A DNA stretch of 23,086 nt, taken from positions 1-23,086 of IMG/VR virus record IMGVR_UViG_3300025168_000711, one strand, 5' to 3'. Each line of letters starts with the position of its first letter. The first letter of the stretch is position 1. The notes under the pieces are model-generated. The model was not told the origin of the DNA and did no database searches. It saw nothing but the letters and a program-made list of their open reading frames with translations. Made by a program: the position numbers and the translations under genes. Below, in pieces: positions 2,170-23,086 of the stretch. Origin of the DNA: a virus.

Positions 2170-2414
2170 TTCTTAACTTTCATATCATTTAACTTTTTAA
2201 TTTCTAATTCACAATAATGTATTATCTTTTCTAGATCTTCTATACCATTTTTTGTAAGATATCTACATACATATTTTACAACGTTCCCTTGAAAAAACGA
2301 AAGATTATTTTTTGAAATAAATTCATACGGTTGAATGTGAAAACTTTTGTAATGTTTTCCCCCTATCTGTTTATCCTGTGGGAAAGCCCCTTTAAATATA
2401 TCTTTACTTGTCAT
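2166..2414 (-). CDS. DUF3310 family small protein
   Basis: This 82-aa protein has the core pattern of DUF3310: D-K-Q-I-G-G-K-H-Y near residue 15, then Q-P-Y-E-F-I, then a helical stretch with F-Q-G-N-V-V-K-Y-V-C-R-Y and a final E-D-L-E-K-I-I-H-Y segment. DUF3310 is widespread in phages. Phage T7 gp1.7, a nucleotide kinase, carries this domain in a longer protein, so a role in nucleotide metabolism is possible but not shown for the short form. The start overlaps the upstream helicase stop as ATGA (2411-2414) and its stop overlaps the polymerase GTG (2166-2169). It is thus locked between replication genes and probably expressed in step with them. Confidence 0.85.
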   Translation of the reverse strand: MTSKDIFKGAFPQDKQIGGKHYKSFHIQPYEFISKNNLSFFQGNVVKYVCRYLTKNGIEDLEKIIHYCELEIKKLNDMKVKK

Positions 2415-3901
2415 AATTGATAACCATACCTTTCTTTTGCGGGTTTTAAGATGTAAAGATTATGTCTGGATCTAGTTGCTCCTACATACCAAACTCTATG
2501 TTCTTCATCTTCTTTATCTTGATTTAACTCTACTGAGTCTCTTATCCTTTTGGTATTATCTAAAACCAAAATAACATTATCTTCTTCTCCACCTTTTGCT
2601 CCGTGAATGGTAGATACTTCTATTCTGGGTTCCTCAGATAATTTTTCTTTGTTACCTAACATTGTTCTGATGTAAAAACATTCTTCTTGATCTGCGTTAA
2701 CAAAAACTTGATACCATATATCTTTTTTAGAATAACCAATGTCTTCCATGTTTACTTCTAATTTGTTTTTTAATTTATTTTCAGGAAAATTTGCAGATAA
2801 ATAATCAAATATATCCTTACAATCAGATATACTTATGTTATTGCCTTTTATAAGTTCTCCCCATTTTAATATACATTTATATAATTTAGCATCATAACTT
2901 TTTCCATATTTTGTTTTATAAAACATACTTATTTCCCTAAGCTGTTTACATATTTTATCTCTACGATAAGTAGTTCTTGTTAGTATTAACCATTTGTCTT
3001 TAGTTAAATCTAAGTTATCTGTATTAAAAATATACTCTACCCTTCCTTTATTTCCTTTTTTAGCTAAATAGTTTTTTTGTTTCCTTACTTTAATTCTACT
3101 TAATATTACATTAGAAATATTTTGAACAGATAAAGGGACTCTTTCTGATCGGTCTAGTATTATTTCTTTTGCGGGTTCATTTAAAAATCTTTTTACATCA
3201 GCTCCTGCCCAAGCGAAAATTGCTTGGTCGTCATCTCCTGCTAAATAAAGATGCTTACATTTTGTTTTTAAAACATCAAACATATTCCATTGAATAGGAG
3301 ATAAATCTTGGGCTTCATCAATAAAAATAACTTCTAGTTCCTCACATTTATCTTTCATTTTTACAAATAACTCAATCATATCGTTGAAATCATATAAGGT
3401 ATTATTTTTTTTAAAATGATTATAGTTCATAAAGATATGACCTAATGTTTCATAATCTATTTCCCTACTCCATTCATTAGTATTAAATTCTTCTTCTACG
3501 GAAATATGTTTTACTCTAGCCTTATTTATAAGTTTAAAATAATCACTGTTAAAATTTAAATAACCACTTTCATCACCACTGTCTGTAACTCTTAAATTTA
3601 AATCCTTACCTATTTGTTCATAATGTTCTGGTTGCATTACCCTATCTTCACTCATACTAATAGTTTGAAAAGCGAAAGAATGTAATGTTCTAAAGTTTAT
3701 TAAATCATCTTTGCTCAATAAATGGGATACTTCCTTATCTTCTAATAATCTATCTTTAGCTTCTTTTGCTGCTTTCTTTGTAAAAGCAAAATACCCAATC
3801 TTTTTAGGATTTATTTTTTTATTTAAAATATAGTCCTTAACATAATTTAATAGAGTTGTTGTTTTACCTGTACCGGGAGGACCAAATATTTTTGTAATCA
3901 T
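2411..3901 (-). CDS. UvrD/Rep-like superfamily 1 DNA helicase
   Basis: This 496-aa protein has the SF1A helicase motifs in order. Walker A is G-P-P-G-T-G-K-T at residues 7-14. Motif Ia is F-T-K-K-A-A-K-E-A near 40-48, and R-T-L-H-S-F follows near 71-76. Walker B is I-D-E-A-Q-D at 194-199, followed by G-D-D-D-Q-A-I-F-A-W-A-G-A-D at 222-235. The C-terminal half has S-T-I-H-G-A-K-G-x-E and a final V-G-A-T-R-S-R-H-x-L-Y motif VI. It should unwind DNA 3'-5' with ATP. It is shorter than cellular UvrD (about 720 aa), so accessory subdomains are reduced. The ATG at 3899-3901 overlaps the primase stop as TAATG, suggesting the two products are made together and work at the same fork. Confidence 0.93.
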   Translation of the reverse strand: MITKIFGPPGTGKTTTLLNYVKDYILNKKINPKKIGYFAFTKKAAKEAKDRLLEDKEVSHLLSKDDLINFRTLHSFAFQTISMSEDRVMQPEHYEQIGKDLNLRVTDSGDESGYLNFNSDYFKLINKARVKHISVEEEFNTNEWSREIDYETLGHIFMNYNHFKKNNTLYDFNDMIELFVKMKDKCEELEVIFIDEAQDLSPIQWNMFDVLKTKCKHLYLAGDDDQAIFAWAGADVKRFLNEPAKEIILDRSERVPLSVQNISNVILSRIKVRKQKNYLAKKGNKGRVEYIFNTDNLDLTKDKWLILTRTTYRRDKICKQLREISMFYKTKYGKSYDAKLYKCILKWGELIKGNNISISDCKDIFDYLSANFPENKLKNKLEVNMEDIGYSKKDIWYQVFVNADQEECFYIRTMLGNKEKLSEEPRIEVSTIHGAKGGEEDNVILVLDNTKRIRDSVELNQDKEDEEHRVWYVGATRSRHNLYILKPAKERYGYQL

Positions 3902-5523
3902 TAAAATATTTCCTCTTTAGATCTAGTAGGTATGATTTCACCTTTAGTCATACTTAAATCTCTAGACTCAATAGGAATTTTTACTACTGATACTGCAGGG
4001 TATTTATTTTCCTCATCACCTTCTTTTTTGGGAAATCTTTTTTTAATACCAAACACTGCCTTAAATAATGTCTGCATCATTTCTGCAGTTCTATCTCTTT
4101 TTTCTTTCCATTCTTTATTTTTAAGAGCATTATAAAAATTACTATAAGTAAAAAAAGCTTCATCCCCATCTATTAAAGTTGCACCACTTTTAAATGATGC
4201 ATAGTTCTCTGCTTTAGGTCCTTTAAGATAAAGAATTAAATACTCTTCTAATAATTCATTGGGTGTAGTTCCTTTTGGTGGGGGCGTGATTAATTTAGGT
4301 GGAAACAAACCATCTAATATATCTTGAAAAGAATCTTGTTTTACTTTTGGAGGAACAATTCCTGCTGAGTTACCAATAATAGCTCTAAGTTCATCTTGAA
4401 TAATAATTTGCTTTATAGTTTTTGCTCTAACTTCTTTTGTGCTTTCCCCAACAGTAACATTAAAAGTATACTCTGGTTCTGGGTAATTTATTTTTTGTAA
4501 TCCTGTCAATGGTGGAAATACTTTTCTTTTATCTGATAAATATCCGAATCTTCTATTTTTACATTCTGCTTTTACACAAACAGGTTGTATAGGATCTTCA
4601 TTACAAGTATGTCCTTTCATCTCTCGTTTCCAAGATATTAATTTCTTTTTGGTTTTTTCTTCTGTCCAATCTAATATCCCTTGAGCATTTGTTTGAAAAT
4701 ATTTACCTGGTGCTGCTTTAACCATATCTTCCCAATTGTCAGGATATTTCTTTTTGGCAAACACTGCATAGTTGTATAAAAATCTATCTCGGCCATCACT
4801 TAATTTTTCTTTTGTTAAAATACCTAGACAAGGAGGACCATCAGAAAACTCTTCACTTCCACCACTTAATATTTCCTTCATATGGGTAATACCAAACTCT
4901 TCTAATTCATCTGCTGTATATGTGTTTACTTTAATAACTTCAGAAAATTGATCAAAAGTAAATTGAGTTCCATCATAATTAAAAGCTGTTCTTTCTGTTT
5001 TGTTATAGTAAGGAACATTTATAAACTGTCCGTCAATATAGTTACCATCAGCGTCCTTACCAAGTTCTGTTTGTTTAGGGTAAATTTCAATGTTGGTAGG
5101 AAGTTTTAAAGCAAACAATAATTTTTCTAAAAAATTTCTTATCGTTGCAGCTTTAATAGGTTCTTTTAAAAATACATATAAATGTAAACCACCACTTTTA
5201 GACTTTATGGGGACTAAAGGCATTTTATATTTTTGAATAATATCTAAATAAATTTTAAAAGGAAAATCTTTGTAACTATGTTGTTTGTCGTCAATATCAA
5301 TAGCACCGAATCTTGCCATACCTTGATCATCACAAGGTTGTATACCTATAGAAGTAGATCCATTTAAATGATCTAAGTAATCACTTTTTTTAATTGGTCT
5401 GTGAACCCATTTATATACGGGTTTTGCTTTTCCTGTAGAGGGATCTATAGTTGTTCGAGATAGATCGGCTACACCAAAATTTCTTTCTAAGCCTGTAAAA
5501 GCTTTTATAAATATATCTTCCAT
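3901..5523 (-). CDS. Archaeo-eukaryotic-type (AEP) primase, TOTE-like
   Basis: This 540-aa protein has the AEP catalytic signature. A hydrophobic strand ends in D76-I-D78-D79 (metal binding), followed by K-S-K-S110-G-G-L-H114 (the S-x-G-x-H-type motif) and an I-E146-I-Y-P-K-Q strand for the third motif. The spacing and the surrounding sequence match the primase domain that Pfam names after TOTE conflict systems (from memory). A Cys cluster, C-N-E-D-P-I-Q-P-V-C-V-K-A-E-C, lies near residues 301-315 and may bind zinc. The C-terminal part looks like helical or winged-helix accessory sequence, with no Walker motif, so helicase activity must come from another gene. No Shine-Dalgarno sequence is visible ahead of the ATG at 5521-5523; a strong hairpin ends ten bases upstream. 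Confidence 0.85.
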   Translation of the reverse strand: MEDIFIKAFTGLERNFGVADLSRTTIDPSTGKAKPVYKWVHRPIKKSDYLDHLNGSTSIGIQPCDDQGMARFGAIDIDDKQHSYKDFPFKIYLDIIQKYKMPLVPIKSKSGGLHLYVFLKEPIKAATIRNFLEKLLFALKLPTNIEIYPKQTELGKDADGNYIDGQFINVPYYNKTERTAFNYDGTQFTFDQFSEVIKVNTYTADELEEFGITHMKEILSGGSEEFSDGPPCLGILTKEKLSDGRDRFLYNYAVFAKKKYPDNWEDMVKAAPGKYFQTNAQGILDWTEEKTKKKLISWKREMKGHTCNEDPIQPVCVKAECKNRRFGYLSDKRKVFPPLTGLQKINYPEPEYTFNVTVGESTKEVRAKTIKQIIIQDELRAIIGNSAGIVPPKVKQDSFQDILDGLFPPKLITPPPKGTTPNELLEEYLILYLKGPKAENYASFKSGATLIDGDEAFFTYSNFYNALKNKEWKEKRDRTAEMMQTLFKAVFGIKKRFPKKEGDEENKYPAVSVVKIPIESRDLSMTKGEIIPTRSKEEIF

Positions 5524-5532
5524 AAATTAAAT

Positions 5533-5560
5533 AGTATGGGCGATTTTTTTCGCCCATACC
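5533..5560 (-). terminator. Strong hairpin, probable terminator or attenuator before the primase gene
   Basis: The arms 5534-5543 and 5550-5559 are perfect inverted repeats: 10 bp with five G:C pairs inside and a G:U pair possible at the base. The loop is six A residues in the minus-strand transcript. The following minus-strand sequence, TATTTAATTT, is U-rich but not a pure U tract, so termination is probably partial. It lies 12 bases after the stop of the 267-aa gene and 10 bases before the primase ATG. It could lower primase output relative to the upstream protein, protect the upstream mRNA 3' end, or limit ribosome access to the primase start. Confidence 0.65.
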
Positions 5561-5572
5561 GATGTTAAAAAA

Positions 5573-6376
5573 CTAGAAGTGTGTTCCTGTTTTATTTCCC
5601 GGTTTACTAGCTTCGCCGTGCTTAACCTCAACGTCTCCTTTTGAAACGCTTTCAGAAAAACTTTTACCTTGTTGGTAAAGGGCAGCATCTTCAACTGCAC
5701 CGACTTTACTAATTTCCCATCCAAACCATGTACCTTTATCATTAGACTGTTGAACAGTTCTTAATTGATAAATGTGGCTATAAGATGCCGGAGTAAAAAG
5801 ACCATTTTTACCCTTCATTTTTATACTAGACACCATACTATTCCATTTTCTGCTTATCTTTAATTGTGTTGATTTCATTGAAATCAAAGCAGTTGATGGA
5901 GTTTCTGAATTAACTATTACAAAGTGACTTGCCGTCTTTTCTACATAGTTACCGTTTGGTAATCTATCTTTATAAGAAGCATCTCTTTTAGTCTTAGTTA
6001 AGATGTCGCTTGATGAAGTATGGATAGCTACAGGAGCTCCTGAACCTTCGCCTCTATCTTGCCATTCAATATACTCTAACTTGTAATGACAAGGAATAAC
6101 TTGGATTCCTTTTTCACCATTAAACAATTCTCCTGTTACAGAGTTGTAAATCATTCCAGGTTCTGCACCTTCAATGTACTTACCGTCTCTTTTATTAACT
6201 TCAGGAGACAATTGTCCTAGTATCTTAAGAAAAGGTAATGCAAGATCATCGTGACCTATATTACCTAATCCCTTATCTGCATCTGCTTCAAACAGATTTA
6301 CAGATAATGCACCAGCTGTAGCTTTGTTTGCTATATCCGATGTTCCTTGGTTCTTTGTTCTTTTTTCACTACTCAT
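5573..6376 (-). CDS. Conserved phage DNA-metabolism protein, possible ssDNA-binding protein
   Basis: This 267-aa protein has a polar, disordered N-terminus (residues 1-25), then a conserved stretch with N-L-F-E-A-D-A-D, D-L-A-L-P-F-L-K-I-L-G-Q and L-S-P-E-V-N-K-R-D-G-K-Y-I-E-G-A. The middle is rich in beta-strand-like sequence and the tail is acidic and polar (S-E-S-V-S-K-G-D-V-E-V-K-H). Proteins with this N-terminal pattern are, from memory, frequent in phages beside primase and helicase genes and are usually called hypothetical. A single-stranded-DNA-binding role is inference from the position, the size and the flexible C-terminus. The start is secure: AGGAGG lies seven bases before the ATG at 6374-6376. 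The strong hairpin after its stop fits an abundant product. Confidence 0.8.
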   Translation of the reverse strand: MSSEKRTKNQGTSDIANKATAGALSVNLFEADADKGLGNIGHDDLALPFLKILGQLSPEVNKRDGKYIEGAEPGMIYNSVTGELFNGEKGIQVIPCHYKLEYIEWQDRGEGSGAPVAIHTSSSDILTKTKRDASYKDRLPNGNYVEKTASHFVIVNSETPSTALISMKSTQLKISRKWNSMVSSIKMKGKNGLFTPASYSHIYQLRTVQQSNDKGTWFGWEISKVGAVEDAALYQQGKSFSESVSKGDVEVKHGEASKPGNKTGTHF

Positions 6377-6387
6377 GATTATTCCTC

Positions 6388-6939
6388 CTATGTTCTAGTG
6401 ATTTTTGTTCGGCTTCCTGCGAACACGTTAAATAAATCCGTAGGCATCTCTTGTCCAGCTTCGAGACGCTCACGGACTAATGCTTTAAGTGTCATTGGTT
6501 CAACCTTTAACTTCTGGACTGGTTGATACCCTTGACCTTGTGCAAGGCCAGCATATTCTGCTGCCTTGTTATCTTCGTTACGACCAAAGGAAACAGTAAC
6601 CTCATTTTTAATAAGATCACCCAAGCCGTTGTTACGAAGCCAGTTAAATGCTTCTTCCTTTTTTGCAATAGGAATTGAAGCACCGTAGACGGGTTTCACT
6701 TCTACAGCGGATCCGTCTGCTAATTTTAAGGTAGAGACATTCATTTCAATCATCATTGTTGGAATGACTTCCGATGAAATTACATCTGCCTCTTGTTTTA
6801 ATTTTTTTAAATTGTCCTCTGCTTCTTTAACCTGATCTTCTAGATTACGAAGTTTAAGAACTTGGTCGGATAATGATTTAACATCATTAGTTTGTTGTAT
6901 TGACTCTGACTTATCTTGCTCAAAGTTTATTTTGTTCAT
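6388..6939 (-). CDS. Conserved phage protein with N-terminal coiled coil
   Basis: The product is 183 aa from the ATG at 6937-6939. This start is preferred over one 16 codons upstream because AAGGAG lies eight bases before it. The upstream alternative (6987) would also fall within or just after a candidate promoter. Residues about 20-60 form a charged heptad-like coiled coil (L-E-D-Q-V-K-E-A-E-D-N-L-K-K-L). Then come a V-I-P-T-M-M-I-E-M segment, a W-L-R-N-N-G-L-G-D-L-I-K segment and a conserved C-terminal block with P-M-T-L-K-A-L-V-R-E-R and P-T-D-L-F-N-V-F. I recognise this arrangement as a widespread phage family found near replication genes, with no established function. It is followed by the 267-aa gene after 11 bases. 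Confidence 0.85.
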   Translation of the reverse strand: MNKINFEQDKSESIQQTNDVKSLSDQVLKLRNLEDQVKEAEDNLKKLKQEADVISSEVIPTMMIEMNVSTLKLADGSAVEVKPVYGASIPIAKKEEAFNWLRNNGLGDLIKNEVTVSFGRNEDNKAAEYAGLAQGQGYQPVQKLKVEPMTLKALVRERLEAGQEMPTDLFNVFAGSRTKITRT

Positions 6940-6976
6940 GTTTTCTGCTCCTTGTTTATTTTTAACTTTCTGATTT

Positions 6977-7005
6977 CTTGTAAACAATTATTTTATCAAT
7001 GTCAA
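6977..7005 (-). promoter_or_regulatory. Candidate sigma70-like promoter for the replication genes
   Basis: On the minus strand a perfect TTGACA (7000-7005) is followed after 17 bases by TACAAG (6977-6982), which matches TATAAT at four of six positions. Transcription would begin near 6970, about 30 bases before the chosen ATG at 6939, leaving room for the AAGGAG site. The -35 box overlaps the stop codon of the 131-aa gene. In such AT-rich DNA a chance match is possible, mainly because the -10 is weak. Confidence 0.4.
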
Positions 7006-7397
7006 TCTTCAATAGCTCCTTTTTCATATAGGTTAATTTCAACAGGATAATATGTTTTTTCTTGTTTATCCCACTTTAATAGATTAAATCTACCGTTTGT
7101 TCTATCTGCGACAATTGAGCACGCCACTCCAATAATTGCAGGATCTCCTGTTAATAATAAATAATCTTTAGGTGTGTAATTTCCTAAAAGTTTTCTTAAT
7201 TTAAAAATTAAAGGACCGGGAGATAACACCATTTGTGAAAATTCAGGTAAACAAACCTTAATCTTGCCATATTTTTGAACTCCCATAATATTAAATTTAG
7301 GACGACCTGATTGAGTACCGGGTAGCTCTTGTATTAAATATACAGTAGGTTCGTGGTTTTTAATATTTTTGTAATCTAAATTTTCTTTCATTGACAT
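7002..7397 (-). CDS. Conserved phage hypothetical protein
   Basis: This 131-aa soluble protein begins M-S-M-K-E-N. Its best ordered part is the C-terminal half, with K-D-Y-L-L-L-T-G-D-P-A-I-I-G-V-A and a polar end around L-K-W-D-K-Q-E-K-T-Y-Y-P. I do not recognise a domain, but the composition and the clean junctions show a real gene. It is the first gene of the leftward DNA metabolism operon and is divergent from the SNF2 helicase gene. Either Met1 or Met3 could be the start, and no strong Shine-Dalgarno is visible. A leftward promoter may share the TATATA-rich palindrome at 7408-7419. It could be an early regulator by position, but nothing in the sequence proves that. Confidence 0.8.
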   Translation of the reverse strand: MSMKENLDYKNIKNHEPTVYLIQELPGTQSGRPKFNIMGVQKYGKIKVCLPEFSQMVLSPGPLIFKLRKLLGNYTPKDYLLLTGDPAIIGVACSIVADRTNGRFNLLKWDKQEKTYYPVEINLYEKGAIED

Positions 7398-7419
7398 ATT
7401 CTATTTGTTTATATATAAA
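7391..7419 (+). promoter_or_regulatory. Near-consensus promoter for the SNF2 helicase gene
   Basis: TTGACA at 7391-7396, a 17-base spacer and TATAAA at 7414-7419 match the sigma70 consensus at 11 of 12 positions with ideal spacing. The predicted start of transcription is near 7426, about 21 bases before the ATG at 7447. The -35 lies inside the first codons of the divergent 131-aa gene. The -10 lies inside a perfect 12-bp palindrome, TTTATATATAAA (7408-7419), which could also act as a -10 for leftward transcription, though the leftward -35 (TTGGTC, 7437-7442) is poor. Confidence 0.7.
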
Positions 7420-7446
7420 ATAACTAGAAAGATAAAGACCAATATT

Positions 7447-8880
7447 ATGAATTATAAGTTTAAAACAAAGCCCTATGCGCATCAAATAACTGCGTTAGAA
7501 AAATCATGGAATAAAGAAGTATATGCTTATTTTATGGAGATGGGTACAGGTAAGTCAAAAGTGTTGATAGACAACATATCTATGCTCTATGATAAAGGAA
7601 AAATTAATGGGGCTTTAATTGTAGCACCAAAAGGAGTGTATCAAAACTGGTATGACTCTGAATTGCCTATTCATATGGTAGAACATATTGAAAAAAATAT
7701 AGTCCTTTGGAAAGCTAATATTAATCAAAAACAAAATTTAAAACTTAAAACTTTATTCGAATCTACCCACAAATTAAATATATTAATTATGAATGTAGAA
7801 GCTTTTTCTACTAAAAAAGGCTTGGACTTTGCTTCTAGCTTTTTAAATACTCATCAAACATTAATGGCTATCGACGAGTCTACTACCATAAAAAACCCTG
7901 ATGCTAAAAGAACTAAAAATATTGTGGCTTTAGGTAAGGCTGCTAAATACAGAAGAATACTTACAGGTTCACCAGTAACTAAATCACCTTTAGATTTATA
8001 TAAACAATGTGAGTTTTTAGATGAGTTTTTATTAGATCATGCCTCTTATTATTCATTTAGAACAAGATACGCTATTATGAAAACAGCTAATTTTGGAGGA
8101 AGGTCTGTACAAATTGTTACAGGTTATAGAAATTTATCCGAGTTATCTGAAAAACTAGAACCTTTTTCTTATCGTTGTTTAAAAGAAGACTGTTTAGATT
8201 TGCCTGATTATACTTATACAAAAAGAATTATTCAATTAACACCAGAACAACAAAAGATATATAATCAAATGAAGCAAGTTGCACTAGCACAACTGGATGG
8301 CAAAATGATGACAACACAATCTGCTATGGTTCAACTAATGAGATTACATCAAATTACTTGTGGTCATTTTACTGCTGATGATGGTTCAATTAAAAAAATT
8401 AAAAATGATAGGCTTTCAACTTTAATAGAAATTTTAGAAGAAGTTGAAAACAAAGCTGTCATTTGGGCTCATTATAGAAATGATATTGCTTCTATTATTG
8501 AAGCAGTAGAAAAAACTTTTGGTAAGGATTCTTATGTAACTTACTACGGTGACACAACAAATCAAGAAAGACAAAATGCTATCAAACAAATTCAAGATCC
8601 TAATAGTAAAGTTAGATTTATAATTGGTACACCTCAAACAGGTGGTTATGGTATTACTTTAACAGGTGCAAATACTATGGTTTACTATGCTAATGGTTAT
8701 GACTATGAGAAAAGAATTCAATCTGAAGCTAGAATTAATAGAGCAGGCCAAACAAGAAAAATGACTTACATAGATATTATTGCTGAAAAAACTATTGATG
8801 AAAAAATAGTAAAAGCACTTCGTAATAAAATGAACATAGCTACTAAAATTACAGGGGACGCTTTAAAAGAGTGGATCTAA
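7447..8880 (+). CDS. SNF2-like superfamily 2 helicase/translocase
   Basis: From the ATG at 7447 this is a 477-aa SF2 ATPase. It shows P-Y-A-H-Q near residues 9-13, Walker A E-M-G-T-G-K-S-K at 31-38, the Walker B box D-E-S-T at 143-146, L-T-G-S-P at 172-176, and a C-terminal lobe with T-G-G-Y-G-I-T-L and Q-S-E-A-R-I-N-R-A-G-Q, the SNF2-type motif VI. DEST in place of DEAH is common in phage SNF2 proteins. Such proteins translocate on double-stranded DNA; the target here is unknown. An upstream in-frame ATG at 7405 would lie before the predicted transcription start, so 7447 is preferred. It is the only gene on the plus strand and ends tail to tail with the holin-like gene. Confidence 0.92.
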   Translation: MNYKFKTKPYAHQITALEKSWNKEVYAYFMEMGTGKSKVLIDNISMLYDKGKINGALIVAPKGVYQNWYDSELPIHMVEHIEKNIVLWKANINQKQNLKLKTLFESTHKLNILIMNVEAFSTKKGLDFASSFLNTHQTLMAIDESTTIKNPDAKRTKNIVALGKAAKYRRILTGSPVTKSPLDLYKQCEFLDEFLLDHASYYSFRTRYAIMKTANFGGRSVQIVTGYRNLSELSEKLEPFSYRCLKEDCLDLPDYTYTKRIIQLTPEQQKIYNQMKQVALAQLDGKMMTTQSAMVQLMRLHQITCGHFTADDGSIKKIKNDRLSTLIEILEEVENKAVIWAHYRNDIASIIEAVEKTFGKDSYVTYYGDTTNQERQNAIKQIQDPNSKVRFIIGTPQTGGYGITLTGANTMVYYANGYDYEKRIQSEARINRAGQTRKMTYIDIIAEKTIDEKIVKALRNKMNIATKITGDALKEWI

Positions 8881-9540: not shown

Positions 9541-12500
9541 CTAAACTAAAAAATCGTCTCCAAATGCTTTTAACTTATCTAAACTTGAAAGTGAGGAGTA
9601 TTGTTGTCCTTGATTTAAAAACCTTTGACCAAGATTTGCTTGTTGATTTTGTACAGCTGCCGTTGTTCCTTGTGTAAAGTTAGGTGTAGGTAATGTAGCT
9701 TGTGGTGCTATTGGAGCTACAGGTTCTATTGTTGTTGGTACAGATCCTGTTTGAGCTCTTGGATTTATAATACTATCAATTGTATTAGTAATAATATCTG
9801 GACTTTGACCTAATTCTATTTCTTGTAAGTCGCTTCTTATATCCTCAAAAAAATCTACAGCTGTATCAAATTGTGTTTCTATCTTACTAGCTTCCTCTGG
9901 ATTCTCCTCATATAATCTATCTATAGTAGACTCCAAAGTAGATTCACTTAAGTTAGGTGCAATAAATTCTCCATCTAATAATGCAGCAACTCTTTTTTTG
10001 TTTTTTAATCGAACACTTATCTTTTCTTCAATATCAGAGTTGTCCGCACCCATGGCTTCCATGTCTTTAATAGTTTGATACATTCTACTTTGAGTATCAT
10101 AATTATCTTTTAAATATTCTGTCATATAGCCTATTCTATTTTCTACACTTATGTTTGGTCTATAAACATTAGATGAAAATTTACTTCTAATATTGTTTAT
10201 GTCTTTATTGTAGGAAGCTACAATAAAAGGTAAACTGTCCATCGGTTTTGCTTCTTCAACACGAAGTCCTGACATCAATGCAGTTAATTCTGTTGCACTA
10301 TCATAAGTAGTACCGTAATCAGTAAAGTCTTGAGTAACACCTTTCCATACTCTTCTTGAACTTCTTGAAGCGCCTGGTTCTAACTGTGCTATTAAATGTC
10401 CTAGTGATGCATCAATTTTTTCCATTGCAGTATCTTGTTCATAAAAAATAGTTCTACCTTCTTTAGTTTTTCCATCTCTTAAAGTTAAGTCAGCTATTGC
10501 TCCAGCTCCAATAGATTCACTTACAAAAGGATCAAAAAACTCTGTAAGAGCACCTGGAGTATCGTTTAAAGTATCATAAATTAATGCGTTATATACTATT
10601 CGACTTGCGCTTTGATTAGTTAAAGTTCCATTTCCATATGCATTCAGTACAGCATTTATGGGTCTAAGCATTGAATCATAAGGATTAGTGTAAGAAAAAT
10701 TAAAATATTTAAAATTACCATTTTCATCAGATTCTGTTAATGGAATTAGTGTTGAGTTTTTTTGATAGTCAGGTGCTACAGATCTTTTAAATGCATCCAT
10801 TTTTTCTTGTGATACGCCTGTAATTTTTTCTGCAGTTTCTGCAATGATAGTGCCTGTTCCACCAAATACCGCCGAAGCACCTACAAGTCTTCTTGCTCCC
10901 ATTTGTCTAATAAATGGGTTTGTACTTGTTAATTCTCTTGCACCTATTTCAATTAAATGTGCACTTGTTCTTAATATTTCCGCTGGAAAAGCTACGAAAT
11001 TTCCAAGAGGTAAGTTTCTAATATTTTTTATAATAGCAGGTACCTTACTATATGTAGGTATTGTATTGGTAACTAAATAAGCAGATATATCTTTTACGTC
11101 TTTAAAGTTTTGAACTAAATTTTCTTTTTGATTTAATAATGATTGCCTTGTTGCGGGAGTAGCTTTTACTAAGTCTGCATCTATCTTAGCAATTTTAGCA
11201 TTAGCTTCTATTAGTTCTTCTACAACATCATTTTGTTTTCCAACCGTTCTATACCAATCGATTATATTTTCCCTAACCACAGCATCTCCTCTTAAACCTT
11301 TAGCACTATGTTGAAAGGCTTGACCTAATGCATCTTGATAAAAATCATCTGCATATATTTTCCAAACGTTGTCTCCTCCTTGATATAAATCAAAAGCTTT
11401 TTTAACTGTTGGATTCTCCATTAAAGCAGATAAAGTAAATTTACCGTTTTTAGCTTTTTCTAAAATAGTTTTAATTTCATTAACCTCTATGTTTTGATCA
11501 ACTATTCCTCTTGCTATTCTATCTTCCATTTTTTTAGCAACATCCGATGCACTTATTAATTTACTTGGAAAAATATCATCAGCCATTAATTTAAAAGCAT
11601 CAGTTAAACTTACTCTGCCTCCGATTAAACCACTAGCTAAAGCAAAAAAAGAAGCTGTTGATACGTTTCTAATTTGTGTCATTGGAGAAAATACTGTTTT
11701 ACCAATCTGACCTGCTGCTTTAACTGACATCAATGCACTGTATAAAGGAATGTCATACATTCTAGATAGATATTCTTCTGTACCTTTAACTGCATTTGCT
11801 ATTTCAGGAGTAACATATAAACCAGTAGTTCCTTCTCCACTACGTTTGATACCGCTGTTAAATAATTTACTTTCAAATAAATCAAAAGTTTTACTTCCAG
11901 GATTAAGATCTGCAGTTACGGCTGTTAAATTATTTGGGTTTGTCACACCTGCTGCAGTAGCTTCTTCAATAGATCTAAAAGCATAACCATTTCTTAATCC
12001 ATTTTCTGCAAACTTATCAAAAAAATCTTTTTTATATATTTGTTTAGCTGTCTGTAAAAAAGTATCTGTAACAGCTGCTCTGTAATCTTTTAAAGGTTCT
12101 AAAAAAGCTTTACTAACTGTTTCAAAGCCTTCACCGTCTAAAGCTTTTTTCATAATATCAGGAACAGATCCTCCTGCTTTTATTAAGGTTCCTTGTGATG
12201 TAAACACTTCTACTTCTTTTCCATCTTTTAAAACTTTTTTAGTAATATCTAAAAGCTCACCTTTTTTACTAATTTTAAATGTATTAGCTACTAACTGAAA
12301 TAAAGATTCTGGACTTCTATTACTTTCAATTAAAGATTTCTGTAATTGAGTCATTGTATTATCAGCCAATAAGTCTACAGCTTCTTGTCTACTAATACTT
12401 TTTTTCTGCATTAAATCTGAAATTAATTTAGGTTGAGAAGATTCTATTTTAGGAACTGTAAATTTTTTAAAAAAATCTTTTGCTCCACCGACTCTTTTAC

Positions 12501-13995
12501 CTGTTTTAGGATCTAATTTACCTAAAACTTTGTTTGGATCAAATTGATATGCTTTGTTTTTCATTACACTAAATACTTGTTTTAAATATGCTCCACCACT
12601 ATCAACAATACTTGCACCCAGATCTTTAAGAGCATCATCAGTGTTTTCAGATAAAAGTTTTCCGTATCGTAAACTTAAATTATTAATGTTTTTCTTTAAT
12701 TCTTTAGCATTTTTTTGTGTATTTTTAGGTAGCTTATTTAATATTTCAATAGCTTCATCCGAATCTTTAAATAATTCTTTTCCGTCCTTTGTTGTTTTAA
12801 CTCTTCTTGCTTGTAAGTAATCATATAATAAATCATTATTTCTTAAATACATTTGATCATCTACGGCTGTAATTGGTTTTGGATATTTTAGTTTTGCAGT
12901 TTGTAAATATCTTGGAAGTTCTAAAACATCGGCTCCTTTAGCTATTTCTTTAAATTGGCCATCTATTTGGTTCATTACTTTAACTAAAGTTTTTTCTTCT
13001 GCTTGTACTGCGTTTTCAAATTTTCTATACTCTTCTGCTTGACTAGCACTTAAAGCACCATCAGATTTAAATGCATTTTTAACATTGTCTAATTTTTTAA
13101 AAAATCTTTCTTTAAAAGGTGCAGTTGGAGCTATGCTATAATTTTTCCAATCTTTTGGATCAGGAATATTTAACACTTTTCTTAACCTAGTACTCTGGTT
13201 TCCTAAAAATTCTGCTGTAGTTCTTGCACCTTTACCAGCTGTTTCACTACCAATAATTTTACTTAATGGATTAAATATAGTGTAGTCTATCGCTCTTAAT
13301 GTTTTACCTCCCACATAACCAACTGCTTTTCCTGCAGGTTTTAATCCATATTTAAAACCTAATGTTCCAGCTACTGGTAATGCTGCAGTTAAGCCACCTC
13401 CTAGTAAAGCGCCTTCTGCTCCGAATCTAATTTTTTCTTTAAAAAATTCTGCTGCTTTAAGAGATCCTTCTAATTCATCTCCTTTGTAATCTTCGCCAAA
13501 ACCCATCGTTTGAGATAATGTTTCTAAATCTCCTGGAGTAGAAACTGCAAAATCAGTAATACCACCAATGCTTCCATAATAACCAGCTCTTTTCGCAAGC
13601 TCTGCACTTTTAGCACCTACACTAGGTAAACTACTTAACTTAACAATTTGACTTGCTTTATTTAATTTTAAAACTCCATTAGCTATTTTAATTGCAGCTC
13701 CTGCAGGTAAAGCAAATTGACCTAAAATAGAAGTAATGTCTCCTACCTTTGTTTCTGTTTCAGGAGTTATTCTTTCAAAAATATTGTCAATTGCACTAAT
13801 TAAATTTGTGTTGGCAACATAATCAATTGGCATTGCGCCTAATTGAAGTAAACCTTGAACAGCTTGACTGACCCCTTTGATTGCTCCTATAGGTATGTCT
13901 GTAATATAATCTATAGCACCTGTTGTTTCAGGTCTAATTTCTTCTTGAGGTTCTGAAAAAACACCTCCAAATAAATCTGTATTTTCTTCCGCCAT
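9541..13995 (-). CDS. Very large internal virion / DNA-ejection-type protein
   Basis: At 1484 aa this is by far the largest protein here. It is mostly helical and charged, with scattered hydrophobic, glycine-rich stretches near residues 95-110 (F-A-L-P-A-G-A-A-I-K-I-A), 195-220 (L-L-G-G-G-L-T-A-A-L-P-V-A-G), about 785 (A-S-F-F-A-L-A-S-G-L-I-G-G) and 1040-1055 (G-A-S-A-V-F-G-G-T-G-T-I-I-A). The C-terminal 80 residues are rich in Gln, Pro and Thr and look disordered. Large size, amphipathic hydrophobic patches and a place after other virion genes fit the giant ejection proteins of podoviruses (T7 gp16 and similar). No lysozyme or transglycosylase motif was recognised, so the call rests on position and composition. 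AGGAGG lies four bases before its ATG. Confidence 0.75.
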   Translation of the reverse strand: MAEENTDLFGGVFSEPQEEIRPETTGAIDYITDIPIGAIKGVSQAVQGLLQLGAMPIDYVANTNLISAIDNIFERITPETETKVGDITSILGQFALPAGAAIKIANGVLKLNKASQIVKLSSLPSVGAKSAELAKRAGYYGSIGGITDFAVSTPGDLETLSQTMGFGEDYKGDELEGSLKAAEFFKEKIRFGAEGALLGGGLTAALPVAGTLGFKYGLKPAGKAVGYVGGKTLRAIDYTIFNPLSKIIGSETAGKGARTTAEFLGNQSTRLRKVLNIPDPKDWKNYSIAPTAPFKERFFKKLDNVKNAFKSDGALSASQAEEYRKFENAVQAEEKTLVKVMNQIDGQFKEIAKGADVLELPRYLQTAKLKYPKPITAVDDQMYLRNNDLLYDYLQARRVKTTKDGKELFKDSDEAIEILNKLPKNTQKNAKELKKNINNLSLRYGKLLSENTDDALKDLGASIVDSGGAYLKQVFSVMKNKAYQFDPNKVLGKLDPKTGKRVGGAKDFFKKFTVPKIESSQPKLISDLMQKKSISRQEAVDLLADNTMTQLQKSLIESNRSPESLFQLVANTFKISKKGELLDITKKVLKDGKEVEVFTSQGTLIKAGGSVPDIMKKALDGEGFETVSKAFLEPLKDYRAAVTDTFLQTAKQIYKKDFFDKFAENGLRNGYAFRSIEEATAAGVTNPNNLTAVTADLNPGSKTFDLFESKLFNSGIKRSGEGTTGLYVTPEIANAVKGTEEYLSRMYDIPLYSALMSVKAAGQIGKTVFSPMTQIRNVSTASFFALASGLIGGRVSLTDAFKLMADDIFPSKLISASDVAKKMEDRIARGIVDQNIEVNEIKTILEKAKNGKFTLSALMENPTVKKAFDLYQGGDNVWKIYADDFYQDALGQAFQHSAKGLRGDAVVRENIIDWYRTVGKQNDVVEELIEANAKIAKIDADLVKATPATRQSLLNQKENLVQNFKDVKDISAYLVTNTIPTYSKVPAIIKNIRNLPLGNFVAFPAEILRTSAHLIEIGARELTSTNPFIRQMGARRLVGASAVFGGTGTIIAETAEKITGVSQEKMDAFKRSVAPDYQKNSTLIPLTESDENGNFKYFNFSYTNPYDSMLRPINAVLNAYGNGTLTNQSASRIVYNALIYDTLNDTPGALTEFFDPFVSESIGAGAIADLTLRDGKTKEGRTIFYEQDTAMEKIDASLGHLIAQLEPGASRSSRRVWKGVTQDFTDYGTTYDSATELTALMSGLRVEEAKPMDSLPFIVASYNKDINNIRSKFSSNVYRPNISVENRIGYMTEYLKDNYDTQSRMYQTIKDMEAMGADNSDIEEKISVRLKNKKRVAALLDGEFIAPNLSESTLESTIDRLYEENPEEASKIETQFDTAVDFFEDIRSDLQEIELGQSPDIITNTIDSIINPRAQTGSVPTTIEPVAPIAPQATLPTPNFTQGTTAAVQNQQANLGQRFLNQGQQYSSLSSLDKLKAFGDDFLV

Positions 13996-19118: not shown

Positions 19119-19290
19119 TGCTTCCTCCCGTACTAAACCATGTTAATCTTTGTTGCTCTTCTCTTAAGTCTTGTTGAAAAGTAGAATTTAATTTTTGTAC
19201 TAATCCATCAAGGTCTCTAATTAATGCATCTGCAACATTTTTATTATAGTCTTTACTAGGTCTTGTAAATGCTAATACTATTTTTGCCAT
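19108..19290 (-). CDS. Small conserved phage protein of the tail module
   Basis: This 60-aa protein contains a central helix, A-L-I-R-D-L-D-G-L-V-Q-K-L-N, followed by F-Q-Q-D-L-R-E-E-Q-Q-R-L-T-W-F. The Q-K-L-N-x-x-F-Q-Q-D-L segment with a W-F near the end recurs in short proteins next to tail genes of marine phages (from memory). The ATG at 19288-19290 overlaps the stop of the 717-aa tail gene (TAATG), with a GGAAGAAG purine tract just upstream, so it should be made in step with the tail protein. Function is unknown; a small helical tail component or assembly factor fits the location. Confidence 0.7.
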   Translation of the reverse strand: MAKIVLAFTRPSKDYNKNVADALIRDLDGLVQKLNSTFQQDLREEQQRLTWFSTGGSSGQ

Positions 19291-21443
19291 TATCTTCTTC
19301 CGTCCGCTTGTATATCCAATCTAAATCCACCAAGCTTCCAATCTTGTGCGGATCCTGTATTTGCAATTTTCAAAGAAATTGCTCTTCCTCTAGCTCTTGT
19401 ATCTACTTTAGTTGTAGATGAAGTAATTGTAAAGGGTCCAAGTGAGGAACTTGCTTGGGAACTATTTGGATAATCTCTTAGGTTTAAAGTAACTTGAGTA
19501 TTGCCACTTTGAGATAAAAAGTCAGGTACGAATCTTCTTATTTTCATAATAAACTCACCATCTCCTCTTGTGTCCGCACCACCTTGTTGCCCTTGAGTAA
19601 TATCATAATCCCCTGATTGTATGTTAGCTGCTACTGTAGTGGTTGCTGAAGATTTAACTTGATCGGTTCCTGTTTCGTGTTGATAGTATGTTGTAGCTCC
19701 TTCAGTATTTCCAACAACATCATAAGATGTACCCGACGCATTAAAAGATGTTGCATGAGGTAAACCAAATACAGACGAATCAACCCAAGTTGTTCTAGCT
19801 AAAGATCCTGTAGTCCATATAGGTCTTTGTGGTGATGATTCCATATAATTATATGTTACAGATCTATTAACTATTTCTGAAGATTGAGTTGGATAAAACC
19901 AAGTTATTTCACCAAACAAGTTATTTAAACCTACGTTAATTAATTGAGATGCTGTTGTATTAATATCATCAAATACATAATCTTCTACTAAACAAATCAT
20001 AGTTTCTAAATTACCAGAGTATCTAAAGAATCCATTTTCAGATAACCAATATGCAGCACCGTCTACTTCTATAGCGGCATTCATTCCAATTAAACCACAG
20101 TTTGTACCTACTTGTGCAAAACCAAATGTAAATGGTGGACCAATAAAACGCATTGTAAATAATGATGTATCTGTCCAAACATAAATAGCATCTCTACCTC
20201 TAACAGCTCCTATAATCCGTGATCCATCGGCAAGTCTTTGTGTACCAGCGGTATTTACAGCTGTAGGTGCGTAAACATTAATATTTTCTTGATCAGAAAA
20301 TCTAATAAACATATCGTCTTGTGTCGATTGATCTCCAATCGTTGTTTCTGTACCAAAGAATACTAAGTGTCTATCCGGTGTAGATACTAACATATCTCTA
20401 GATGCCGTGGGTGCTCCAGATATAATAGTGGCTCTTGTTGCTACGGCATTAGCTGCATTTGAATCCCATTCAAAAACTTGTGCATTGTGAATTAAAGAAA
20501 TAACCTTGTCTCCAAAGTTATCTATAGACCACATACCTGGATCTATAACTAAGTCTCCAGATGCTGCTTCACCCCATGCTACATAATCAGATGAGTTTGT
20601 AACTGCCACACCATTGCTGTGTATTGCTGCGGTTGTATTTCTTACACCTCTTGTAACACCTGTTAATTGATTACCTGCAATTCCTGTGTATGATATTTCT
20701 TCTGATCCTATTTGAACAAAGTTTGTTCCTGATGATGGAAATAAAGATGCATCACCTAATACTACTGTAGTTGTTGAAGCATTGATACCGCCATTCAAAG
20801 TTGTAATAGCTTCTCCCGATACTGTTCCACTCCACTGTCCTAAACCAAAACCAAATCCTGGTGCTTGTTCTGCTGGTCCTACACTATAATAAGCTTGAAC
20901 TCTAATACCACCAGATGTTGTAGCACCTGATCCTGTTTCATTAGAAGACATTGTAATATTAATTTCTGATGATGATATAACAGTTGTTACCATAAACTTT
21001 TTATCATCAAAATCTGTTGCTGAATAATTAGAGTTTGTAATAGCTGTAAAATTATCTAATAAAACAATATCACCTGCTACTAAACCATGATTACCACTAA
21101 ATGTTATAGTAACAACAGCGGATCCGTTTGTTGTAGAAAAAGCATTAGATAAAGATGTTGTAGATCGAATTGGGTGTATGTCATAAAACACACCACCAGA
21201 ATAAACATATAAAATTCTGTTTGTACCTATAATAGAAAACTTAGTTCCTGATCTATTAACAATATGATGCATAGCTCTTGCTGCACCCGTCATATCGTTT
21301 TCACCAAGTTGTAACCAACCGCCTATTTTTTCAGGGGTGTTGTACCTAAATCGTACATTGTCGCCATCGATCCATTGTCCCTCCGCTTGAGTTGGGGTCA
21401 ATTGTTTATTGAATCCAGGCAAAAAATTCATCTTTTGTAGCAT
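19290..21443 (-). CDS. Tail / packaged-DNA stabilization protein (P22 gp10-like)
   Basis: This 717-aa protein has the N-terminal pattern of the P22 gp10-like stabilization family: F-L-P-G-F-N-K-Q near residues 7-14, then W-I-D-G-D-N-V-R-F-R-Y near 24-34 and P-E-K-I-G-G-W near 37-43. Later come W-S-I-D-N-F-G-D near 305-312 and repeated beta-blade-like segments to the end. Two beta modules seem inserted in the first third, at about 97-187 and 221-283; the second contains Q-I-G-S-E-E-I-S-Y-T-G and L-T-G-V-T-R-G-V. The family plugs the portal-tail channel and links to the tail needle or hub. AGGAA lies six bases before the ATG at 21441-21443, supporting that start over Met5. Confidence 0.75.
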   Translation of the reverse strand: MLQKMNFLPGFNKQLTPTQAEGQWIDGDNVRFRYNTPEKIGGWLQLGENDMTGAARAMHHIVNRSGTKFSIIGTNRILYVYSGGVFYDIHPIRSTTSLSNAFSTTNGSAVVTITFSGNHGLVAGDIVLLDNFTAITNSNYSATDFDDKKFMVTTVISSSEINITMSSNETGSGATTSGGIRVQAYYSVGPAEQAPGFGFGLGQWSGTVSGEAITTLNGGINASTTTVVLGDASLFPSSGTNFVQIGSEEISYTGIAGNQLTGVTRGVRNTTAAIHSNGVAVTNSSDYVAWGEAASGDLVIDPGMWSIDNFGDKVISLIHNAQVFEWDSNAANAVATRATIISGAPTASRDMLVSTPDRHLVFFGTETTIGDQSTQDDMFIRFSDQENINVYAPTAVNTAGTQRLADGSRIIGAVRGRDAIYVWTDTSLFTMRFIGPPFTFGFAQVGTNCGLIGMNAAIEVDGAAYWLSENGFFRYSGNLETMICLVEDYVFDDINTTASQLINVGLNNLFGEITWFYPTQSSEIVNRSVTYNYMESSPQRPIWTTGSLARTTWVDSSVFGLPHATSFNASGTSYDVVGNTEGATTYYQHETGTDQVKSSATTTVAANIQSGDYDITQGQQGGADTRGDGEFIMKIRRFVPDFLSQSGNTQVTLNLRDYPNSSQASSSLGPFTITSSTTKVDTRARGRAISLKIANTGSAQDWKLGGFRLDIQADGRR

Positions 21444-21464
21444 AGAAATTCCTGTTTTATTTAG

Positions 21465-21491
21465 ATTATATTAAATTGCGCTGTAGATCAA
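21465..21491 (-). promoter_or_regulatory. Candidate promoter for the tail and virion genes
   Basis: On the minus strand a perfect TATAAT (21465-21470) lies 15 bases after TTGATC (21486-21491), which matches TTGACA at four of six positions. The 50-base gap between the 2OG oxygenase gene and the tail gene is the longest gap in the right half of the window. Transcription would start near 21458, 15 bases before the tail gene ATG, keeping its ribosome site. The spacer is shorter than the ideal 17, so this remains a candidate. Confidence 0.4.
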
Positions 21492-21493
21492 CG

Positions 21494-22138
21494 TTATTTG
21501 GGTATACCCAACATAGGTCTTTTATCATACAAATTGGACTTTGCAAACCGTCCATCTGCATGATTATAGTGTAAAAACACTTGTCCGCAAAGCTTTCCTT
21601 CAAAAGGTTTTCGCCAATGCTCTAATTCACAGCCAGAATAAATAAGCATATCACCAGGTTTTAAATTAACTTCTACACCTAATGGTGCACTTGGTTTGAT
21701 AATACCTTTGTATTCTTCAATAACATTATCTGCTCCTGTTGGATCTAGATAGATAGGCCAGTGATCACCACCTAAACATAGTGTAGTTGATATTTCACAA
21801 CTAGGTCTATCTTTATGTCTATTTAATATATTACCTGTTCTATAAAGTCTTGTGTAAGAATAAGTTGGAACTAATTTAAGTCCTGTTTTCTTTTGCATAA
21901 CATCAATAGTTTTAACTAATAAAACTTCCATAAGTCTATCTGCATATTTAGCATAAGATCCTGGTACTTGTTTATCATGAAAATTACCAACTAATGGATT
22001 ACCTACATGGGTGGTATAATTGTTTATCATCCAGTTATCAGCTTCTGCAGATATTTGTAAATATCTATAAGCAACGTCTGCTAACTCTTTAGATATAGCA
22101 CCACGTATGACTTGGTATTTATTTTTCTTAAAACTCAT
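21494..22138 (-). CDS. 2OG-Fe(II) oxygenase
   Basis: This 214-aa protein shows the double-stranded beta-helix dioxygenase pattern: L-N-R-H108-K-D110 supplies the H-x-D iron ligands, and L-E-H174-W-R the distal histidine. Between them lie I-S-T-T-L-C-L and L-K-P-G-D-M-L-I-Y-S-G, the usual strands before the distal ligand, followed by V-F-L-H-Y. Such enzymes use 2-oxoglutarate and oxygen to hydroxylate a substrate, which cannot be told from sequence. Its ATG overlaps the stop of the preceding oxygenase gene (ATGA, 22135-22138), so the two are translated in tandem. It is the last of three such genes before the tail operon. Confidence 0.85.
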   Translation of the reverse strand: MSFKKNKYQVIRGAISKELADVAYRYLQISAEADNWMINNYTTHVGNPLVGNFHDKQVPGSYAKYADRLMEVLLVKTIDVMQKKTGLKLVPTYSYTRLYRTGNILNRHKDRPSCEISTTLCLGGDHWPIYLDPTGADNVIEEYKGIIKPSAPLGVEVNLKPGDMLIYSGCELEHWRKPFEGKLCGQVFLHYNHADGRFAKSNLYDKRPMLGIPK

Positions 22139-22740
22139 ATTTGTATAAAGTTAAAGGACACAGATATACGCCAGTTCTTTTCGCCTTTATCTGTATTTAA
22201 ATTAATGTCTACGCCGTGAGGCAACCACGATGGAAAGAATATCATTCTTCCTTCTACAGGTTCATAAGCACATACTCTCCATAAAGCTTCAGGCATACCT
22301 TCAATTCTTCTAGGCATATGTGTATTTGGTCCTGGTCTAGGATCTTCTAAAAATATTTTACCTGAGTTTTTTGGCGCTTTGATATAATATACACCTGACC
22401 ATAATGAGTTAGGGTGAGTGTGTGTTTTGTTGTACGAATATGTAGGGCTAACATTTGCCCACATATTACCTAATCCTAGTTTAGGTTGTACTCCATAATC
22501 TTTATTGCACTCTTCAGCCATTTTAAATAGTTCTTGAGTAAGAGGATTAAATTCTTTTTTCTTATCCATGTCTGTTTTACTGTGCCAACCAAATCCAGAG
22601 TTTGTTTTCTTTTCTCCATCAGGATCAGCTTTCTTCCAAGCTTTAATATGCTTAAATAAGTATTTATTTAATTCTTTAGCGTTAGGTAAATCATAAAAGT
22701 ATACAGGAGTTGGAAATAATATTTTTCTATTAAGTTTCAT
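22135..22740 (-). CDS. 2OG-Fe(II) oxygenase, TIGR02466-like family
   Basis: From the ATG at 22738-22740 the product is 201 aa. It starts with an L-F-P-T-P-V-Y segment typical of the TIGR02466/2OG-FeII_Oxy_5 group. It continues with W-A-N-V-S and T-H107-T-H109-P-N-S-L-W-S-G-V-Y-Y, then I-F-L-E-D-P-R, then F-F-P-S-W-L-P-H175-G-V and W-R191-I-S-V-S-F-N, which give iron-binding and 2OG-binding residues. An upstream in-frame ATG at 22764 exists, but the 22740 start forms an ATGA overlap with the preceding stop and follows a GGAGG about 12 bases upstream. The substrate is unknown. It differs clearly in sequence from its two neighbours, so the three are not recent duplicates. Confidence 0.87.
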   Translation of the reverse strand: MKLNRKILFPTPVYFYDLPNAKELNKYLFKHIKAWKKADPDGEKKTNSGFGWHSKTDMDKKKEFNPLTQELFKMAEECNKDYGVQPKLGLGNMWANVSPTYSYNKTHTHPNSLWSGVYYIKAPKNSGKIFLEDPRPGPNTHMPRRIEGMPEALWRVCAYEPVEGRMIFFPSWLPHGVDINLNTDKGEKNWRISVSFNFIQI

Positions 22741-23086
22741 TTTAATGGCGGTCCTCCAAACCACATAACCATAGATCTTCTTATACCTTTTTTAACAGGG
22801 GCTACTTTGTGTCTTAAAAATGATGCAAAGAATATAGCTTGTCCTTGTTTCAAGGGTAAAGGCTTCTCGCCACCCATTTCTGAAAACATTAAATCGCCTC
22901 CAGTAAAATCTTTAGGGTCTGACAATAATAAAGTCATAGATATTTTTCTAATAGGATTCTGGCCTTCTTGACCAAAAGCATTTAGATCCATATGCCAATC
23001 ATAAAAACCACCTTTAGGATATTCTGTAAATTGTGCTGGCTCTGTAAGTGTTACACCATCAAAACCAAAATGATTTAAATTTACAA
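22737..23086 (-). CDS. 2OG-Fe(II) oxygenase, PKHD/prolyl-hydroxylase type, N-terminus beyond window
   Basis: The reading frame stays open to the window end, giving 115 visible residues. The sequence Y-P-K-G-G-F-Y-D-W-H-M-D-L-N carries the H-x-D iron motif, and R-K-I-S-M-T-L-L-L-S, T-G-G-D-L and F-F-A-S-F-L-R-H-K-V-A-P-V follow, with the distal His and then R-R-S-M-V-M-W-F. This is the C-terminal catalytic half of a prolyl-4-hydroxylase/PKHD-type enzyme. The first internal Met (22989-22991) lies inside the H-M-D motif and cannot be the start. Its TGA stop overlaps the next oxygenase ATG as ATGA. The substrate could be protein, nucleic acid or a small molecule. Confidence 0.9.
   Translation of the reverse strand, partial: VNLNHFGFDGVTLTEPAQFTEYPKGGFYDWHMDLNAFGQEGQNPIRKISMTLLLSDPKDFTGGDLMFSEMGGEKPLPLKQGQAIFFASFLRHKVAPVKKGIRRSMVMWFGGPPLK

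Follow-up and report, generated by a model that had tools for sequence, protein, structure and literature searches.

In marine phages related to the window studied here, a run of adjacent 2-oxoglutarate (2OG)-Fe(II) oxygenase genes moves together with the adhesin gene upstream of it as one cassette, inherited apart from the genome backbone, and this co-movement is well supported by the loci that we compared. The best explanation that we can offer, and one that we hold with middling confidence, is that the enzymes hydroxylate or otherwise mature their cognate adhesin.

Three overlapping oxygenase genes at the end of a viral contig

The window is a complete linear virus record of 23,086 bp, which may itself be a fragment. 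Its relatives at the DNA level are almost exclusively Pelagibacter phages, and its PolA/primase/helicase set resembles that of HTVC023P-type podoviruses as described in PMC9599517. Three oxygenase genes (P3, P2 and P1) lie at its right end, where the contig edge cuts the array inside P3. The features of this region are:

22737..23084, minus strand: P3, PKHD-type 2OG-Fe(II) oxygenase by its PF13640 match; C-terminal 115 aa, the 5' end lying beyond the contig
22737..22740, minus strand: ATGA stop/start overlap of P3 and P2, read from the sequence
22135..22740, minus strand: P2, TIGR02466/PF13759 oxygenase of 201 aa with H107-x-H109...H175 (TIGR02466 score, AlphaFold2, Foldseek)
22135..22138, minus strand: ATGA stop/start overlap of P2 and P1, read from the sequence
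21494..22138, minus strand: P1, predicted 2OG-Fe(II) oxygenase of 214 aa labelled "ferrochelatase" (phrog_2954), with H108-x-D110...H174 (AlphaFold2, Foldseek)
21444..21493, minus strand: 50-bp gap between P1 and VIR4 with an AGGA ribosome-binding site, read from the sequence
19290..21443, minus strand: VIR4, conserved virion structural protein (phrog_3287, E 2e-114), used as backbone marker downstream of the array

A previous reading of the sequence only had described three distinct oxygenases in one operon, coupled by ATGA overlaps at both junctions, and the sequence, family matches and models bear this out. It had also led the array straight into the tail operon; a virion gene does lie close by, but VIR4 follows a gap and has its own AGGA site instead of an ATGA coupling. 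For P2, the GTG at 22764 (longest ORF) was considered as start and the ATG at 22740 was taken instead. A promoter and terminator scan gave no signal above chance level.

Elsewhere in the window, a 1484-aa ORF without PHROG match (9541-13995, minus strand) occupies the place where large ejection or internal virion proteins usually sit. The helicase gene at 7405-8880 (phrog_62) is the only long gene on the plus strand, the remainder being on the minus strand. PHROGs 21866 (primase), 2954 and 61, for which enrichment in seasonal viral chronotypes has been described (PMC11561400), are all three present, at 3901-5523, 21494-22138 and 22737-23084, respectively.

P1 resembles prolyl hydroxylases rather than ferrochelatases

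P1 matches phrog_2954, named "ferrochelatase", with an E-value of 2e-54, and has neither a Pfam nor an NCBIfam match. Among 30 P1 homologues, none matched the ferrochelatase family PF00762 at E-values up to 1, nor was there any meaningful Pfam hit. The AlphaFold2 model of P1 (pLDDT 90.7) adopts a double-stranded beta-helix according to the model and Foldseek, with Pseudomonas prolyl-4-hydroxylase (4iw3/4j25, E 1e-9), a Dictyostelium PHD and human PHD2 as best matches, and its top list consists nearly entirely of 2OG oxygenases (E 1e-9, TM 0.5-0.66). The facial triad HxD...H (H108, D110 and H174) is invariant in an alignment of 30 diverse homologues. Since both the model and the invariant HxD...H fit a 2OG oxygenase and no ferrochelatase match was found, the label of phrog_2954 is very probably wrong, and P1 is predicted to be a prolyl-hydroxylase-like 2OG-Fe(II) oxygenase. 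The P1 and P2 models have their fold in common with known prolyl-4-hydroxylases (Pseudomonas PPHD 4iw3/4j25, PBCV-1 vCPH 5c5t and human PHD2), and P1 also the HxD...H. However, sequence identity is just 12-17%, and about 10 residues past the distal His, where an Arg or Lys usually binds 2OG, P1 shows no clear or invariant Arg, its invariant R97, R176 and H190 being located elsewhere.

Other PHROG names call for similar caution. The first half of phrog_3531, also named ferrochelatase, is matched by P1 and its second half by P3, which is the pattern expected of two 2OG domains. We also noticed weak matches from P2 and P3 to phrog_274 and phrog_2297 ("DNA endonuclease"), and "DNA endonuclease V" genes sit within the 2OG arrays of Mosig and Syn9; examples of probable mislabelling are L005 4188-5470 and L509 5216-7462. 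Thus, the labels of phrog_2954, phrog_3531, phrog_274 and phrog_2297 probably hide 2OG oxygenases, a structure model being at hand for the first of them alone. A profile-profile comparison between P1 and the families of P2 and P3 gave no useful information. In 84,980 bacterial species, P1 was found at 15 loci, all on marine MAG/SAG contigs that look phage-borne.

P2, P3 and P4 keep family-typical active sites

P2 scores far above the cut-offs of both of its families (TIGR02466, 137.9 bits vs 62.5; PF13759, E 4e-22, 79 bits vs 27). With its AlphaFold2 model (pLDDT 93.6), Foldseek retrieved the uncharacterised proteins 3bvc (E 1e-12) and 2rg4 (E 1e-10) as the nearest solved structures, followed by PHD2 and P4H. 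The metal-site residues of P2 (HxH...H) are invariant in 27 homologues, and in the alignments of P2 and of P4, the fourth oxygenase of related arrays, this invariant HxH...H replaces HxD/E...H, so that P2 lacks the canonical carboxylate ligand. Because the motif is invariant and HxH also stands at the aligned position in the solved relatives of P2, we consider it a family trait rather than decay. P2 and P4 may use 2OG.

P3 matches PF13640 (E 2.9e-15, above the Pfam cut-off) and aligns with the PKHD hydroxylase PiuC over the catalytic core (phmmer 1e-10). Despite this likeness to PiuC/YbiX hydroxylases, it falls well below the NCBIfam equivalog thresholds (69 bits vs 143, the others scoring lower). 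Its residues H111, D113, H172 and R182 (L087 numbering) are invariant in 19 homologues. We found no substrate of PiuC in the literature. Of the three dioxygenases announced by the sequence-only reading, then, P1 and P3 keep HxD...H, whereas P2, like P4, has the family-wide motif without carboxylate; Fe(II)- and 2OG-dependent activity is predicted for P1 and P3 and may extend to P2.

The array is conserved in order and overlap

The tandem picked out from the window recurs in relatives, with P3-P2-P1 in this order at 142 of 163 loci and across 29 P1 lineages at 80% identity; most other loci are on contigs that end inside the array. In the same set, 4-nt overlaps occur at 105 and 102 junctions, and VIR4 lies directly 3' of P1 in 130 loci, the contig ending there in 15 more. 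Since order and overlaps are both conserved, the arrangement is not due to chance. A set of 65 more distant loci, with P1 proteins sharing 39-100% identity with the HTVC008M one, nearly always has a P3-like gene ahead of P1 where the contig extends far enough.

Close relatives carry four 2OG genes (P4-P3-P2-P1). In the nearest one (L087), whose P2 is 100% identical to that of the window, the series starts with a kelch-type adhesin and a helical 220-aa protein and continues with P4, P3, P2, P1 and VIR4. The helical-looking 220-aa protein (L087 728-1390) is conserved in relatives between the kelch adhesin and P4 and has no Pfam hit; it was counted apart from the 2OG family, with which single-linkage clustering had merged it, and is possibly a fibre chaperone. 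Some arrays hold further genes. A sulfotransferase, an APS-kinase-like gene and a CTP_transf_like nucleotidyltransferase gene form a module inside some kelch-type arrays, whole in L016, L034 and L043 and partial, upstream of P4, in L048. In roughly 30 loci (L008, L014 and others), P2 and P1 are separated by the gene of a ParB_N-domain protein of ~137 aa.

The array accompanies two of three adhesin types

We sorted the adhesins near these loci into kelch-type proteins that match kelch proteins in the PDB (KEL), glycine-rich proteins with PF21722 (GLY), and fibres with Laminin_G_3 beside a DUF7483 tail-fibre gene (LAM). Their position and repeats, and the annotated fibre genes that take their place elsewhere, suggest a receptor-binding fibre role for KEL and GLY. 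Pelagiphages that bear the array and glycine-rich adhesins include HTVC023P (gp61/gp62) and HTVC033P (gp62/gp64). The pairing was counted in adhesin-seeded scans, in which the seed is blind to the array; an adhesin count seeded with P1 was dropped as seed-biased. With classes assigned by pattern, contig fragments as loci and few LAM loci, 2OG genes were found within five genes downstream of the adhesin in 51 of 52 KEL and 25 of 25 GLY loci, and in none of 18 LAM loci. Within the VIR4 backbone, the array was present in 36/36 KEL, 20/20 GLY and 0/8 LAM loci (Fisher 2e-10, ignoring kinship). A VIR4-seeded scan gave the same picture (KEL or GLY, 21/21; LAM, 0/7), and at 58 of 60 loci of the GLY scan a 2OG gene came straight after the last adhesin. 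There are exceptions: the kelch locus L450 is without array, HTVC027P has 2OG genes adjoining VIR4 but neither a KEL nor a GLY adhesin, and cyanophage S-P4 carries a P1-like gene amid replication genes.

Adhesin and array are exchanged as a unit

A VIR4 tree of 79 proteins requires at least 25 changes of adhesin type and at least 8 of LAM. Across 8 independent pairs in which one member has LAM and the other does not, LAM and array run counter to each other every time (median p 0.008). Even VIR4 proteins that are 94% identical may belong either to a locus with kelch adhesin and array or to one with LamG and no array; L243, whose VIR4 is 94% identical to that of the window, has a LAM fibre and lacks the array. 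Four GLY loci (L182, L195, L208 and L209) that were scored as array-less on one strand in this analysis carry the array next to the adhesin on the other strand, and L247 has opposite-strand P2-like genes only.

The oxygenase trees look different, with one change of adhesin type each for P1 and P3, parts of the P3 tree being unsure owing to long branches. Within adhesin types, P1 distances track P3 distances closely (correlation 0.85-0.89) and VIR4 distances poorly (just 0.15-0.35), even though P1 and VIR4 are adjacent (50 bp apart in the window). The many changes of type on the VIR4 tree against one on the P1 and P3 trees indicate that array and adhesin form one cassette. The array is thus co-inherited with the fibre type independently of the backbone, as expected of a host-recognition cassette, and since P1 and VIR4 have decoupled histories, the boundary of the cassette probably lies at or near 21444..21493.

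Maturation of the adhesin as the favoured role

KEL and GLY adhesins keep homologous arrays and LAM fibres have none, which suggests that the former require these enzymes, probably as their substrates; both the P1 and the P2 model resemble protein (prolyl) hydroxylases. We propose that P4-P3-P2-P1 and the directly upstream adhesin or tail-fibre-tip genes would constitute one exchangeable host-recognition cassette, whose oxygenases would be translated together late in infection. The enzymes would hydroxylate residues of the cognate adhesin before or during fibre assembly, in kelch-like repeats in the phage type of the window and in glycine-rich domains in others, and thereby may alter its stability or its binding to the receptor. 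In some phages the hydroxyls might then serve sulfation. The adhesin as substrate, hydroxylation as the chemistry and late expression are what we infer.

The sequence-only reading had left open whether virion proteins, DNA or a host metabolite are modified, and among virion proteins had named the tail or ejection proteins encoded next. Our data favour virion proteins, but the adhesins upstream, which are encoded outside the window, rather than those downstream, because inheritance of the array follows the adhesin type and hardly depends on VIR4. That reading had also thought of stepwise or combined modification, with which the sulfotransferase and APS-kinase-like genes of some arrays are compatible. 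Against an adhesin substrate, no obvious target motif is common to kelch and glycine-rich adhesins. A search for a proline-rich motif shared by KEL and GLY gave, in favour of such a substrate, a strong excess of PP doublets in KEL (4.8-fold over shuffles, 522 vs 109 in 187 proteins). The excess is weak in GLY (1.3-fold) and also seen in LAM fibres (1.7-fold), so that prolyl hydroxylation of adhesins may be taken as a lead only.

The main rival, which we think unlikely but which fits the same pattern, is that the enzymes act on the host receptor or on precursors of it, e.g. LPS/O-antigen building blocks, and so prevent superinfection or re-adsorption to debris. With a different receptor for each adhesin, this would lead to the same coupling with adhesin type, and both the sulfotransferase and APS-kinase-like genes and the glycosyltransferases in host-recognition clusters of pelagimyophages (PMC7029224) would suit such a role. 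However, the P1 and P2 models are most like protein (prolyl) hydroxylases, and the array genes adjoin virion genes.

Co-inheritance is partly expected from linkage, the genes being contiguous and swapped as a block, and metaviromic islands of marine phages do hold Fe(II)-dependent oxygenases (PMC3909814). The array might then have no direct functional link to the adhesin: placed between adhesins and VIR4, it would hitch-hike in a hot spot of recombination, and KEL and GLY would have inherited it by accident. We find this quite unlikely: arrays with catalytic residues and 4-nt overlaps are kept behind KEL or GLY in nearly 100% of cases across many lineages and always lost with LamG. Linkage is insufficient because two non-homologous kinds of adhesin keep homologous arrays and a third never does.

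According to the published reading, the 2OG oxygenases are auxiliary metabolic genes (AMGs) that act on host iron/haem or 2-oxoglutarate metabolism, with a ferrochelatase as partner or through 2OG draw-down (PMC9599517, PMC11561400, PMC3037559). This appears very doubtful to us, since the structure model makes the supposed ferrochelatase one more 2OG oxygenase, the array retains several distinct active sites in fixed order, and metabolism leaves the tie to adhesin type unexplained. Finally, AlkB/TET-like oxidation of phage DNA or repair of alkylated DNA, which a weak Oxygenase-NA match of P3 and cyanophage 2OG genes adjoining uvsX/uvsY/uvsW (PMC2984593) might suggest, is most improbable: AlkB and TET are absent from the top Foldseek matches of P1 and P2, close relatives drop the array along with the adhesin while retaining the backbone, and the location gives no support, the array being in the fibre/virion region at least 12 kb from the polymerase, primase and helicase genes (313-8880).

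Relation to known systems and significance

Co-located 2OG genes are known from pelagiphages and cyanophages (PMC9599517, PMC3037559, PMC9602691). The pelagiphage 2OG/"ferrochelatase" groups (HTVC023P-type, PMC9599517; HTVC008M; PMC11561400) comprise the same genes (phrog_61, phrog_81 and phrog_2954) in the same phage group; their co-location and variable copy number have been reported, and the phrog_2954 label was used to call them AMGs with a haem partner (PMC9599517, PMC11561400). In these reports we found neither the adhesin pairing nor the fixed order nor the 2OG nature of the "ferrochelatase". Fe(II)-dependent oxygenases are also listed among host-recognition genes of hypervariable metaviromic islands (8 cases, Table 1 of Mizuno et al., PMC3909814), a single table line in which we found no mechanism or adhesin specificity. 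In the literature that we searched, which covers few subscription journals, we found no link of 2OG arrays to adhesin type and no correction of the ferrochelatase label. The pairing of array and adhesin thus appears to be new, whereas 2OG co-location in pelagiphages was already published. In Alteromonas phages V22/A5 (PMC7289586, PMC10579305) and in T4 gp37/gp38, fibre and accessory gene are likewise exchanged as a unit from one phage backbone to another; there, the accessory is a cognate chaperone, in contrast to the three or four oxygenases in the phage group of the window.

The 2OG oxygenases of marine-virome phages are frequent and unexplained, and are read as AMGs without known substrate. 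Pairing with adhesins supplies a specific substrate candidate and would make many of these genes a matter of "host recognition" instead of "host metabolism". A ferrochelatase AMG would also be removed, on whose label haem and iron interpretations and part of the seasonal-enrichment result had rested. More broadly, we tentatively suggest, as a possibility short of an expectation, that marine phages carry dedicated protein-hydroxylase arrays for the post-translational modification of their own receptor-binding adhesins and exchange both as one host-range cassette, with sulfation added in some. If true, phages would have their own version of collagen prolyl hydroxylation.
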